From: an uncultured bacterium
GTDB taxonomy: Bacteria; CALINM01
Length of the DNA stretch: 7,244 nt
NCBI GenBank assembly: GCA_938045315.1
Contig: CALINM010000212.1
Span: 1-7,244 of the forward strand
Direction: 5' to 3'
A model generated the notes under the pieces. It searched no databases. It saw nothing but the letters and a program-made list of their open reading frames with translations, and had not been told where the DNA came from. Position numbers and translations under genes: made by a program. Shown piece by piece: positions 2,996-7,244 of the stretch. The stretch's first letter is position 1. Each line of letters opens with the position of its first letter.

Positions 2996-3014
2996 ATTAA
3001 GTTTTAGACTTAAT
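2996..3014. promoter_or_regulatory. Palindromic candidate operator at the cooS transcription start
   Basis: ATTAAGT (2996-3002) and ACTTAAT (3008-3014) form a perfect 7-5-7 inverted repeat. It begins about where transcription from the predicted cooS promoter should start (near 3014) and runs into the leader, the usual position of a repressor site. A third ATTAAGT lies at 3039-3045, overlapping the predicted -35 box. It does not match the published CooA (TGTCG-N6-CGACA) or FNR (TTGAT-N4-ATCAA) consensus. The arms are AT-rich in an AT-rich region, so chance is not excluded. Confidence 0.45.
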
Positions 3015-3020
3015 CTTTAA

Positions 3021-3048
3021 ACTATATTACTTTCTAAAATTAAGTCAA
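3021..3048 (-). promoter_or_regulatory. Predicted sigma-70-type promoter of cooS
   Basis: On the minus strand, TTGACT (complement of 3043-3048) and TATAGT (complement of 3021-3026) are separated by 16 bases. Each box differs from consensus at one position. Transcription would start near 3014, leaving a leader of about 36 nt before the cooS ATG. Confidence 0.6.
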
Positions 3049-3089
3049 GTAAAAATATCATTTTAATTATTTTACTCTCTTTATTAATT

Positions 3090-3160
3090 TTTGCAAAAAA
3101 TTTTTTTATTCCGCTAATTGCGAATTTGCTAAAAAAATTTTCTATTTTCGCCAAAAGGCG
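3090..3160. repeat. Two imperfect A/T-tract units in the divergent intergenic region
   Basis: Two units start with TTTGC at 3090 and 3125, about 35 bases apart. Each continues into an A tract joined to a T tract (3095-3107 and 3131-3140), then ATT and a short GC-containing inverted repeat, the clearer being CGCC-AAAA-GGCG at 3149-3160. Such tracts are often curved. The rest of the 357-base gap between cooS and the first pilin (2978-3334), apart from the two promoters and the palindrome, is low-complexity AT-rich sequence in which I see no gene or RNA. Confidence 0.35.
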
Positions 3161-3278
3161 TAAACTTAATGACACAACTTTTTTTCCTTATAATTATAAC
3201 TTATTGAAAATAAATGAAATATTTTATCTGTTAAATTTTTAATTTAATAAAAAAAAGCTGGCATAAAATTTTCTTATA

Positions 3279-3308
3279 TTGACAATACCAGTAGAATTAG
3301 GATAAAAT
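3279..3308 (+). promoter_or_regulatory. Predicted sigma-70-type promoter of the pilus operon
   Basis: A consensus TTGACA (3279-3284) lies 18 bases ahead of TAAAAT (3303-3308). Transcription would start near 3315, giving a leader of only about 20 nt that contains the AAGGAGGT ribosome site at 3323-3330, five bases before the pilin ATG. The leader is too short for a riboswitch. Confidence 0.65.
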
Positions 3309-3334
3309 TAATTCAAAAAAAAAAGGAGGTAAGT

Positions 3335-3799
3335 ATGAAGTGTAAAGTTTTATTAATGATTGCTTTAGTTGTGATCGTATCCTTAAGCTCAAATGCTTTC
3401 GGAGCTGACACAGGTACAGTAAACATTAATGCTACAGTTGTGGGCACGTGCAAGTTTACTACTAATACTGCTAACATTAGTGTTACTCTTGATCCATCAG
3501 TGGGTGGCCCTGTTACAGGAAGTGGTTCTCTTGTTTTTTGGTGCACAAAAAATGCCAGCTACACAGTAACAGATGATGATGGATTATATGAGACAGGTCC
3601 TAATGCAAACAGAGTTTATAATTCTTCGGCTAGTGAGTACATACCCTATACTTTTACCTATACTCCAACATCAGGCACAGGTAGTGGTCCTCAAAATACA
3701 ATAACACTAACTTTAACAGCAAGTTTTGCACAAACAGATTATGAAAATGCTGCAGCAGGAACATATTCAGATACAGTAACAATAACTGTAAATCCATAA
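3335..3799 (+). CDS. Spore coat U-type (archaic chaperone-usher) pilin, first copy
   Basis: This 154-residue protein has a Sec signal peptide (Lys2 and Lys4, hydrophobic 5-19, likely cleavage after FGA at Ala24). The mature part of about 130 residues is rich in Thr, Ser, Asn and Gly and in alternating beta patterns. It begins GTVNINATV, an alternating hydrophobic stretch of the kind used as donor strand in pilus assembly. Cys39 and Cys70 probably form the disulfide typical of the SCPU family (CsuA/B-like pilins). It ends GTYSDTVTITVNP, the family's usual closing strand. It should be secreted, capped by the chaperone encoded downstream and polymerised by the usher. It is first in its operon with by far the best ribosome site there (AAGGAGGT), which fits a major, abundant subunit. 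Function is inferred from family pattern and neighbours; major versus minor status is inference. Confidence 0.85.
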   Translation: MKCKVLLMIALVVIVSLSSNAFGADTGTVNINATVVGTCKFTTNTANISVTLDPSVGGPVTGSGSLVFWCTKNASYTVTDDDGLYETGPNANRVYNSSASEYIPYTFTYTPTSGTGSGPQNTITLTLTASFAQTDYENAAAGTYSDTVTITVNP

Positions 3800-3806
3800 T
3801 TATTTT

Positions 3807-4313
3807 ATGGATAAATACTTTTTAAAGAGGGCAACTGCCCTCTTCATTTTTTTATTTACATTATTTTTTTTAAAGCAAAACTTGTTTGCTGCACAGGGTA
3901 CAGTAAATATTAATGCTAATTTAGTCTCTGGTTTAACATGCTGGTTTAATACAAGTAATGCAACCATAAATCTTGGGGATCTAATTCCTGGTAGTAATCT
4001 TGATATTACATCATCAGCTACTTTAAGGTTTAGGTGCTTTGCAGTAGGAACTCTTGTTTATTCAATAACCGATGATGATGGACTTCATGAACCTTCACCT
4101 GGCTTACATAGGCTAAAACATATTACAGATAATGAATATATTAATTACGAGTTCGATTATAATCCAAAAAGTGAGACTATAGTTGGACCGCCCTGGAGGA
4201 TAATCAGAATACAGAGAACCTTGAATATTACGGTTACAGTACCTCATAATTCTTATCAAAATGCATCGGTGGGGAATTATTTCGATGTTGTGACCTTAAC
4301 TTTACTACCATAA
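3807..4313 (+). CDS. Spore coat U-type pilin, second copy
   Basis: This 168-residue paralogue of the preceding pilin lies 7 bases after its stop codon. It has a strongly hydrophobic signal peptide (about 9-29, likely cleavage after FAA at Ala29), then QGTVNINANLV, nearly the same mature N-terminus as its neighbour. Cys45 and Cys77 correspond to that pilin's cysteine pair. Shared internal motifs are TDDDGL, an E-Y-I element, and the ending with YQNASVGNY followed by DVVTLTLLP. It is longer and more basic, with extra Arg/His residues around 100-140. No Shine-Dalgarno precedes ATG 3807, so translation probably depends on ribosomes ending the first pilin, giving lower yield. A minor, adaptor or tip-proximal subunit is a reasonable guess, but the order within the pilus cannot be read from sequence. 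Confidence 0.82.
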   Translation: MDKYFLKRATALFIFLFTLFFLKQNLFAAQGTVNINANLVSGLTCWFNTSNATINLGDLIPGSNLDITSSATLRFRCFAVGTLVYSITDDDGLHEPSPGLHRLKHITDNEYINYEFDYNPKSETIVGPPWRIIRIQRTLNITVTVPHNSYQNASVGNYFDVVTLTLLP

Positions 4314-4353: not shown

Positions 4354-5451
4354 ATGCAAATTAGTTCTTGTTATCTTTTCTACAGATTGAAAAAACGTTT
4401 AATCGGTGAGCTACTTTTAACAGGAAAATTTATTAGTAAAGATGTCTTAGATAAAGCACTAGAAGAACAAAGAATAAACAACAAACTTATTGGTGAATTA
4501 CTTGTCGAACTGGGAGCTCTTTCAAAAGAAGAGCTAAATATAGTACTAAAATTTCAAGAGAATTTATCAACCCCTAAAGAGGCAATCAAATTTGCTGGTG
4601 GTATAAGAAAAAAGTTAGGTGAGCTTTTACTTGAAGTTGCTAAGATTAGTGAGAATGATCTTGAAGAAGTTCTATCTGTCCAAAAAATTTCGGGACGTAA
4701 AATTGGTGAAATTTTACTTGAAAAAGGATTAATAACTGAAAAGGAACTTAAGGCTGTTCTTCTATTTCAGAAGATTCAAGAGGAAAAACATGCACCTGAA
4801 AAAATTAAATTGGGGGAGCTGCTTTTAAGTCTTAATGTTATAACTCAAGAACAATTAGAGAGTGCATTAAAAATACAAAGAAACAATCCAGAAAAGAAGT
4901 TGGGAGAAATCTTAATTGAGTCAGGTTATGCTAAAAAGGATGATATTGAACGGGGTTTAAAGTTACAGCAAAAATTGGCTACAATTGCCCTTTCTACAAT
5001 TATTAACTTCTCCACTGATTTTTTAATAAATGAATTACCTGCAAGAGAACTACAACCACCAGCAACTAAAAAGGCACAGATTCAAATAACTGCTGAAGTA
5101 AAAAGCTACGCAAAAATTAATCTCACAAAGCAGGTAAATGAATTTATAATAAAGGAGAACCATATTAATAAAGGCTTTATTGATTTAGAAGATGTTACAT
5201 ATTTAATGATTTCCACAAACAATAAATCACTATTTTTAGTTTTTGAGGGTTTCTCCAAAGACATAATAGAAGAAGTGGAAATCTTTGGATTAGGGGAACC
5301 AGTAAAAATTGGTCCCCATGGTGGTATGATTCTAATTAAAGATATACCCAAAAGATCACAATTTAACCTATCATATAGGATAAGAATTTCAAAAAATGCG
5401 AGGGTAGGAACCTATGCTTGGCCGTATACTATTTCTGTTGCTCCTTTTTAG
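4354..5451 (+). CDS. MshEN-like repeat protein fused to a pilus-associated beta domain
   Basis: This 365-residue protein has two parts. Residues 15-206 contain six repeats of the pattern L-G-E-(L/I)-L-L-x-x-G-x-(I/L)-(S/T)-x4-L-x3-L-x2-Q, with closing glutamines at 39, 68, 110, 139, 175 and 205. Spacings of 29, 29 and 30 within pairs suggest three pairs, resembling MshEN (type II secretion ATPase N-terminal) domains that can bind cyclic-di-GMP. Residues 207-230 are moderately hydrophobic. Residues 240-365 are beta-rich and end with SYRIRISKNARVGTYAWP and a final beta strand, reminiscent of secreted domains encoded near spore-coat-U pilins. No signal peptide or convincing membrane helix is visible, although its neighbours have signal peptides. 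The gene lies 40 bases after the second pilin and overlaps the chaperone gene by 38 bases. Neither ATG 4354 nor an in-frame TTG at 4387 (giving MKKRLIGELL) has a good ribosome site. Cytoplasmic location and ligand binding are inference. Confidence 0.8.
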   Translation: MQISSCYLFYRLKKRLIGELLLTGKFISKDVLDKALEEQRINNKLIGELLVELGALSKEELNIVLKFQENLSTPKEAIKFAGGIRKKLGELLLEVAKISENDLEEVLSVQKISGRKIGEILLEKGLITEKELKAVLLFQKIQEEKHAPEKIKLGELLLSLNVITQEQLESALKIQRNNPEKKLGEILIESGYAKKDDIERGLKLQQKLATIALSTIINFSTDFLINELPARELQPPATKKAQIQITAEVKSYAKINLTKQVNEFIIKENHINKGFIDLEDVTYLMISTNNKSLFLVFEGFSKDIIEEVEIFGLGEPVKIGPHGGMILIKDIPKRSQFNLSYRIRISKNARVGTYAWPYTISVAPF

Positions 5452-6154
5452 CTCCTTAATTGATACAGGAATAGCTGCTGAATGGAGAATTTCACCCATT
5501 AAAATTGAGCTTGCACCACAGGATAAGAGTGCATCAATAACTGTCTTTAATGAAGATACAATCCCTATTAATTTTCAAGTGAAAGCTATGGAATGGACTC
5601 AAGATGAAAATGGAAATGATAATTACTTTGAAACGGAAGATATTATCTTTTTTCCAAAGATCCTAACAGTGGAACCAAAAAAAGAAAGATTAATAAGAGT
5701 GGGTTTTAAAAAAAATAATCCCCTTAAAGAGAAAACATATAGGCTCTTCGTGGAGGAGATCCCATCGGAGCAATCAAACGGAGGGGTTGCTGTCCGTATT
5801 GCCCTCAGATTTGGAATACCTATTTTTATTAAACCTTTGAAAGAAGAAATTAAATGGGAAATAAAGAAAAAAGCAGTGGAAAAAAAATTTTTCACCATAG
5901 AAATTGAAAATAGTGGTAACCAACATTTTTACCTTACCCACATAAAACTAACAGGTAAAAGTAAAGATAATCCCGAAAGGAATTTATTTTCTAAGGAAAT
6001 AAAAGGATGGTATATATTGTCAGGATCAAAAAGGGAATTTAAAGAAAAATTAGAAGAATGCGATAAGATCGATAAAATTCATTTTCAGATTGTAACCGAT
6101 AGGTTCACCTTCGATGATATGCTTACGATCTCTAAAGAAAATTGTGGTAATTAG
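5414..6154 (+). CDS. Periplasmic pilus chaperone (PapD/CsuC family)
   Basis: This 246-residue protein has a signal peptide (Arg4, hydrophobic 5-16, likely cleavage after IAA at Ala22), then two immunoglobulin-like domains. The N-terminal domain (about 23-141) shows ISPIKIEL, SITVFNED, FQVKAMEWTQ, the subunit-binding G1-type strand region ILTVEPKKERLIRVGF (83-98), YRLFVEEIP (109-117) and the signature RIALRFGIPIFIKP (128-141). The C-terminal domain is 145-246. Chaperones of this type receive pilins from the Sec system, complete their fold by donating a strand, and deliver them to the usher. The start overlaps the previous gene by 38 bases, with AGGG and TAGGA just upstream, and the end overlaps the usher by 41 bases, so translation is probably coupled. 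Length and motifs are normal for the family. Confidence 0.92.
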   Translation: MLGRILFLLLLFSSLIDTGIAAEWRISPIKIELAPQDKSASITVFNEDTIPINFQVKAMEWTQDENGNDNYFETEDIIFFPKILTVEPKKERLIRVGFKKNNPLKEKTYRLFVEEIPSEQSNGGVAVRIALRFGIPIFIKPLKEEIKWEIKKKAVEKKFFTIEIENSGNQHFYLTHIKLTGKSKDNPERNLFSKEIKGWYILSGSKREFKEKLEECDKIDKIHFQIVTDRFTFDDMLTISKENCGN

Positions 6155-7244
6155 TTTTTTCCTGAGCAATTTACTCTTCCCTTCCTACATTTTTGCATCT
6201 ATTAAAGAAGAAGTAGTATTATCATTAACAATAAATGGGGAAAAGATTGGAGATATATTTTGTGTTCTTGAAGGTGACAATATATTTATACCCTTAGAAA
6301 CTTTTAGAGAAGCTAAATTTAGAAAAATTGATGGTAGGTTTTTAAATATTTATGGCAAAGAATACGTGGACTTGAAAAGCTGGGGTGAGATAAAGTTTGA
6401 ACTTAATATAGAAAGATTAGAATTAAACCTGTTCGTTCCACCAGAGTACTTGCCAGCAAACATAATTAACCTGTATCCAAAAAGAAAAGAGAATGTTATT
6501 ATACCAACCCAAAACAGTGCATTTCTAAATTACAGATTTGATTATTCCAATGTTGAAGGAGTTAGAAATTTATACATAAATCATGAACTTGGAATAAGGC
6601 TAAAACCCATTTCTTTTTTGACAAATGGTTTTTACTTTGATAACACTAACAAATATACACGGCTTGACACAGCAATTTATTATGACGATAGACATTCTTT
6701 AAATAGATTAGTAATAGGAGATTTTGTTACTCCATCATCTCCCACTACTTCTGGTAATAAAATGATTGGTATAAGCTTTTTAAAAAAATTTAATATTGAT
6801 CCATATTTCATTTTTAAACCCACCTTTGACATTAGATCCTACGCAAATTTTCGATCAGAGGTAGAGATATATTTAGACGAAACCCTAATAAGAAGGGAAT
6901 TTATACCACCAGGAGAAATTAACATTACTGATCTGTATTATTATGGCGGAAGAAGGGATATTAAAGTACTTATTAAGGATCCCTTCGGTAAAATAGAGAC
7001 CATAAGTTATCCCTTATATTTCACTGACATAATGTTAAAAAAAGGTCTAAGGGATTTCAATTATTCCCTTGGTTTTTTGAGAGAAAATTATGGAGTTGAA
7101 AGTAATAGATATAATCATCTTAGTTTTTCTGCTTTTGAAAAATATGGTTTTAATGACTACCTTAATATAGGCGGACATTTTGTTTCAGTGCCTTCAAAGG
7201 ACTTTTATAATATTAGTATTGGAAACAATATTTTGCTCTTACAT
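6114..7244 (+). CDS. Outer-membrane usher (FimD/PapC/CsuD family), N-terminal part
   Basis: The frame is open from ATG 6114 to the right edge, giving 377 residues of a protein usually about 750-900 long. Residues 1-28 form a signal peptide (Arg5, Lys8, Lys9, hydrophobic 10-27, cleavage after IFA). Residues 29 to about 130 fit the periplasmic N-terminal domain that receives chaperone-pilin complexes. The barrel appears to start near NYRFDYS (139-145). Family landmarks follow: GDFVTPSS (202-209), an R-S-x3-N-F region leading into VEIYLDETLIRRE (250-262) and PPGEINITDL (265-274) as in the plug and following strands, KDPFGK (288-293), and GLRDFNYSLGFLRENYG (311-327). The usher forms the secretion pore and catalyses subunit exchange. 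The ATG overlaps the chaperone gene by 41 bases and lacks a strong ribosome site, so coupling is likely. The C-terminal domains, and any tip adhesin gene, lie beyond the window. Confidence 0.9.
   Translation, partial: MICLRSLKKIVVISFFLSNLLFPSYIFASIKEEVVLSLTINGEKIGDIFCVLEGDNIFIPLETFREAKFRKIDGRFLNIYGKEYVDLKSWGEIKFELNIERLELNLFVPPEYLPANIINLYPKRKENVIIPTQNSAFLNYRFDYSNVEGVRNLYINHELGIRLKPISFLTNGFYFDNTNKYTRLDTAIYYDDRHSLNRLVIGDFVTPSSPTTSGNKMIGISFLKKFNIDPYFIFKPTFDIRSYANFRSEVEIYLDETLIRREFIPPGEINITDLYYYGGRRDIKVLIKDPFGKIETISYPLYFTDIMLKKGLRDFNYSLGFLRENYGVESNRYNHLSFSAFEKYGFNDYLNIGGHFVSVPSKDFYNISIGNNILLLH

Follow-up and report, generated by a model that had tools for sequence, protein, structure and literature searches.

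A candidate inner-membrane c-di-GMP receptor fused to a pilus-associated beta domain in a chaperone-usher operon

To our knowledge, chaperone-usher pili lack both an ATPase and any cytoplasmic component, and it is therefore generally assumed that cytoplasmic signals act on them via expression. Nor do we know of a c-di-GMP receptor domain encoded in operons of the Csu or CupE type. The second messenger c-di-GMP affects the expression of chaperone-usher genes (PMC13243610). The locus described here raises the question of whether it could also reach such a pilus directly, through a protein encoded in the pilus operon itself. The locus lies in a 7,244-nucleotide stretch of DNA from an uncultured bacterium (the window) and comprises five genes that follow each other on one strand:

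3335–3799, + strand: SCPU pilin 1 (PF05229, E 1.5e-12)
3807–4313, + strand: SCPU pilin 2 (PF05229, E 5.9e-6)
4354–5451, + strand: fusion gene with three MshEN domains, a signal/anchor-like segment and a beta domain (365 amino acids; open frame with an NCBIfam match, uninterrupted at each of 25 distinct loci)
5414–6154, + strand: PapD-type periplasmic chaperone (PapD_N; PF00345, E 1.3e-16)
6114–7244, + strand: usher, cut by the end of the window (PF00577, E 2.7e-8)

The Pfam matches to the pilins, the chaperone and the usher define a chaperone-usher operon of the SCPU type. The fusion gene is an ORF with an ATG start, and the chaperone ORF begins within it, overlapping it by 38 bases. An earlier note on this DNA had taken the overlap as an argument for operon membership. 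The overlap and the gene order recur in a congener whose protein shares 65% identity (L008); the order of the pilus genes is repeated in other loci as well. Between the two congeners, dN/dS is approximately 0.13 across the whole fusion ORF, which indicates purifying selection, although the value is rough because synonymous sites are close to saturation. The window also contains a prismane-type/carbon monoxide dehydrogenase gene (1043–2977, − strand; PF03063, E 1.4e-159) that is divergent from the pilus operon and hints at an anaerobic, CO-using host. The C-terminal part of a beta-lactamase-fold hydrolase (1–546, + strand; PF12706, E 3.7e-7) is truncated by the start of the window.

We divided the fusion protein into the following parts:

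4399–4557, + strand: MshEN domain 1 (residues 16–68), with motifs at 16 and 45 and L, not R/K, as first motif residue
4612–4770, + strand: MshEN domain 2 (residues 87–139), both half-sites fitting the motif in the window protein, with K for R
4807–4968, + strand: MshEN domain 3 (residues 152–205), predicted to be membrane-proximal and holding the best conserved putative c-di-GMP site of the family
4972–5043, + strand: internal Sec signal/anchor-like segment (residues 207–230), with a K, a hydrophobic core at 208–220 and a possible weak cleavage site between LPA and RE
5083–5448, + strand: C-terminal beta domain (residues 244–365), probably periplasmic, of a family without a Pfam name

Searches for this architecture used only the beta domain as query, with genome contigs scanned by a five-row alignment, and were therefore unbiased towards MshEN. 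They found the fusion in Thermodesulfobacteriota, Myxococcota, Nitrospirota and Pseudomonadota, with Paraburkholderia elongata among the hosts; together with the window's own phylum (three genomes in the comparison set), 25 distinct fusions were counted. Four further full fusions (L074–L077), obtained from a later and separate sample, share the third MshEN domain, the spacing and the signal segment with these 25, and one of them (L077, genome G719) lies in a single-contig genome of 3.7 Mb. The fusion is conserved in distant genomes; the earlier note had named a lack of conservation in related genomes as one outcome that would refute its reading. The assembly that holds the window is fragmented into 244 contigs, and an assembly error or a local loss of frame might have joined two unrelated pieces into a meaningless fusion. 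The repetition of the architecture in 25 loci and in the single-contig genome, together with an open frame under purifying selection, reduces the chance of this to almost nil, and we consider an assembly artefact ruled out by the conserved fusions.

Not all members of the family are complete. Three shortened proteins (L044, L065 and L067) retain MshEN3 alone, and a fourth (L073), which may be in decay, has just half of it left. In a tree of the beta domains, fused members are spread widely and the state changes at least twice, with most deep branches unresolved. A pilus locus from Nitrospirota (L052) has a second small ORF with MshEN-like repeats (2999–3349, + strand; 116 amino acids) upstream of the pilin and the fusion.

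The N-terminal array was identified as MshEN by profile and by motif. It matched the NCBIfam family of MshE-related c-di-GMP domains (NF053729) over three stretches with 136.9 bits (E 1.3e-40), against a cut-off of 38 bits, and the same identity holds for 20 of the 20 fusion members checked. The 24-residue MshEN motif occurs six times, starting at residues 16, 45, 87, 116, 152 and 182. The copies pair into three domains of 53–54 residues, with spacers of 5, 5 and 6 residues between the paired motifs, which gives each domain the two-motif organization of MshEN; the spacer of MshEN3 is one residue above the usual length in the window's genus. Furthermore, the family profile matched Vibrio cholerae MshE, whose structure with c-di-GMP has been solved (PDB 5HTL; PMC5013675), at E 6.6e-11 with the alignment on MshEN3. 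The six MshEN-like repeats that the earlier note had read from the letters are therefore confirmed, and they do not belong to a different helical family. In Pfam, which the note had proposed to search, the window protein had no family above cut-off, DUF4388 falling narrowly below it; the NCBIfam match is well above its own cut-off.

Conservation of the ligand contacts (R1, L2, G3, L17, L21 and Q24) distinguishes MshEN3 from MshEN1. MshEN3 has nearly all of them. Its L2, G3, L17 and L21 are present in both halves of all 25 distinct fusions, Q24 is present in 24/25 and 25/25, and position 1 is R or K in 23/25 and 21/25. MshEN1 lacks R1 in the window, and only 1/22 and 2/22 family members have R or K at this position in its two halves. 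Mutagenesis of MshE showed that c-di-GMP binding depends most on the hydrophobic positions and the glycine positions and that changes of Arg9 and Gln32 cost at most fivefold (PMC5013675). Considering this and the contacts kept, MshEN3 is expected to bind c-di-GMP, as is MshEN2 in the window protein, whereas binding by MshEN1 is doubtful. The ligand is probably available, since the window's genome has 12 GGDEF matches. We also weighed the possibility that the repeats have lost c-di-GMP binding and act as a scaffold or as a docking part for other proteins, for example a secretion ATPase or the translocon. The near-universal loss of R1 from MshEN1 is consistent with such a role, as is the precedent of XpsE, one of the MshEN homologues that lost binding (PMC5013675). 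However, the positions most costly to binding are intact in MshEN3 of all 25 members, and replacing R1 by K or other residues costs less than fivefold (PMC5013675), which makes a non-binding array rather improbable. The contacts of MshEN3 were kept in every member although the beta domains of the family are only 20–30% identical to that of the window, and we counted this in favor of a receptor.

The segment that follows the array (residues 207–230) had escaped the earlier note and decides how the protein can work. Throughout the family, a hydrophobic run begins after the last glutamine of MshEN3 and extends for about 13 residues, with the typical form KLVTAALIAALSLA. The mean net charge changes from +1.6 before the segment to −0.7 after it. 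The median hydrophobicity of the segment in the family (2.40) approaches that of the signal peptides of pilins, chaperones and ushers at the same loci (2.48–2.73) and is well above that of a cytosolic control (0.85). The window's own core, which holds an N and a D, is the weakest of the family. Charge and hydrophobic core fit a Sec signal; the cleavage-site statistics are weak, and the core is poorest in the window protein. The segment resembles a Sec signal/anchor, which would place the MshEN array inside and the beta domain outside. We rejected a separate internal start that would yield the beta domain alone, since just four members have Met in front of the core and most have K.

The spacing on the two sides of the segment differs. 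Between Q205 and residue 220 there is no indel in 25 sequences, and the linker past the segment varies from 17 to 26 residues in the same set. The AlphaFold model of the full protein, a structure prediction that the earlier note had recommended, has a single helix at 195–220, then a disordered linker and then a confident beta domain with strands at 253–364.

The signal-like character of the segment also accommodates a two-in-one precursor, in which signal peptidase I frees the beta domain as an ordinary secreted pilus subunit. The remaining MshEN-membrane stub would then act separately on another target or be a mere passenger of co-expression. AxA-like sites follow the segment in 24 of the 25 members, the short Ala/Leu-rich core is typical of cleavable signals, and secreted beta domains do occur on their own. 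However, the number of AxA sites barely exceeds that in shuffled linkers (p ~0.04–0.05, marginal). Moreover, the fixed spacing from the ligand glutamine to the core and the three members reduced to MshEN3 point to a joint action of sensor and segment. We regard such independently working parts as unlikely and favor a protein in which the array acts on the segment or on the beta domain beyond it.

By sequence, the beta domain falls outside the SCPU pilins. We found no Pfam match, SCPU included, in any of 21 members, and hhalign against 24 SCPU pilins returned a probability of 0.7%. In addition, SCPU pilins have an invariant cysteine pair, and no cysteine is conserved in the beta domain. We therefore rejected membership of the domain in the SCPU family (PF05229). 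The earlier note had likened it to domains secreted with SCPU pilins, and a relation to such domains is supported: relatives that consist of the beta domain alone start with signal peptides, and several adjoin SCPU genes. Predicted alone, the domain folds as a beta sandwich (pLDDT 92.7). Among solved structures it comes closest to CanA, the cannula protein of Pyrodictium (Z 8.5), and then to pilus subunits such as FimG, PapA and FimI (Z 6–7), against a background of unrelated sandwiches (Z 5–6). The likeness of the model to CanA and to pilus subunits is only suggestive, and as the fold searches gave no firm homologue, we did not take these weak sandwich similarities as an identification. A tblastn search of plasmids with the beta domain returned no match. 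The domain defines a probably extracytoplasmic family outside Pfam. At one locus (L057), two signal-peptide-only beta domains without MshEN stand in tandem (4842–5378 and 5500–6036, + strand), convergent to a pilus operon.

The fusions keep close company with pilus genes. Pilin, chaperone or usher genes adjoin 20 of the 25 fusions, and SCPU genes adjoin all five of the newly sampled loci (L073–L077). Among 297 genomes of one phylum, an usher is present in 8 of the 10 with the beta domain and in 5 of the 287 without it (Fisher p 4e-11, uncorrected for kinship). In four loci (L059, L062, L066 and L068) the fusion lies outside the pilus operon, in convergent orientation to it. Usher and SCPU genes were not found in the assemblies of four fusions (L051, L055, L056 and L069), and a strict tie to a chaperone-usher pilus is therefore not universal. 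These four could point to a wider envelope function to which the pilus neighborhood is secondary. The adjacency counts and the strong co-occurrence with ushers speak against it, and the four assemblies are perhaps incomplete or the result of recent losses, so that we consider a wider role very unlikely.

Taken together, we assign a probability of about 0.6 to the reading that the fusion protein sits in the inner membrane as a c-di-GMP receptor and gates how a pilus-associated subunit is exported or acts. The array would remain in the cytoplasm, where MshEN3 would bind c-di-GMP through both half-sites, and its last helix would continue into the Sec signal/anchor segment. The beta domain would be translocated to the periplasm and function there as a pilus-associated subunit (pilin-like, base or minor) with the chaperone and usher of its own operon. 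c-di-GMP bound some three residues from the hydrophobic segment could alter the use of the segment for export or the action of the beta domain on assembly, and pilus output would then track the second messenger without new transcription. The receptor could be an anchored transducer or a precursor that is gated and then cleaved; both versions predict c-di-GMP binding and an N-in/C-out topology. In a more specific and less probable form of the proposal, c-di-GMP bound to MshEN3, whose last helix would run straight into an internal Sec signal, would determine whether the pilus subunit crosses the inner membrane. If true, a second messenger would switch chaperone-usher assembly at the translocation step. 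As to the sign of control, our guess is that c-di-GMP promotes the pilus.

Several known systems share elements with the proposed receptor. LapD is an inner-membrane, c-di-GMP-controlled protein that acts on a periplasmic partner. Like the mechanism suggested here, it relays cytoplasmic c-di-GMP sensing through the membrane to the control of adhesion, but its degenerate EAL domain, HAMP domain and protease-holding periplasmic domain are unrelated to the parts of the fusion. NfrB, a glycosyltransferase of E. coli, is an inner-membrane protein with a cytoplasmic MshEN that controls a surface product (PMC8669469), a placement similar to that predicted for the fusion. NfrB is, however, an enzyme with a C-terminal MshEN, whereas the fusion has its MshEN at the N-terminus and an extracytoplasmic beta domain as likely output. 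With MshE and the ATPases of type IV pili and type II secretion (PMC5013675; PDB 5HTL), the fusion shares the 53-residue two-motif domain, the contacts found in MshEN3 and a tie to surface fibers. It differs in having no ATPase, three tandem domains, a signal/anchor-like segment, an exported-type beta domain and a place in a chaperone-usher operon. The archaic Csu and CupE pili (PMC10104325) resemble the window's system in combining SCPU pilins, a PapD-type chaperone and an usher in one operon.

Our literature search, which covered the main texts of mostly open-access papers, found MshEN reported neither within a chaperone-usher operon nor on any exported protein; the fusion may be listed among the supplementary architectures of Wang 2016. 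The recurrence of the fusion across phyla suggests an undescribed direct link between c-di-GMP and chaperone-usher pili. A receptor physically linked to a pilus-associated domain that is probably exported would give c-di-GMP a direct route to the pilus, and one that can be tested. It would also represent a new output for an MshEN receptor and an unusual placement of a folded sensor ahead of an export signal.

Known carriers of MshEN include ATPases, glycosyltransferases, REC, HD-GYP, CheA, CheX, cyclases and kinases (PMC5013675); NfrB (PMC8669469) is one of the glycosyltransferases. Two ORFs from the collected loci, judged by eye, have MshEN in other company. A 486-residue protein (L009, + strand) joins MshEN-type repeats to a receiver and to a domain resembling nucleotide cyclases, and combinations resembling it are on record (PMC5013675). 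A 518-residue protein (L020, + strand) has an MshEN-like N-terminus on an apparent sigma-54 activator (AAA+ and HTH), and is possibly a c-di-GMP-controlled activator of transcription.
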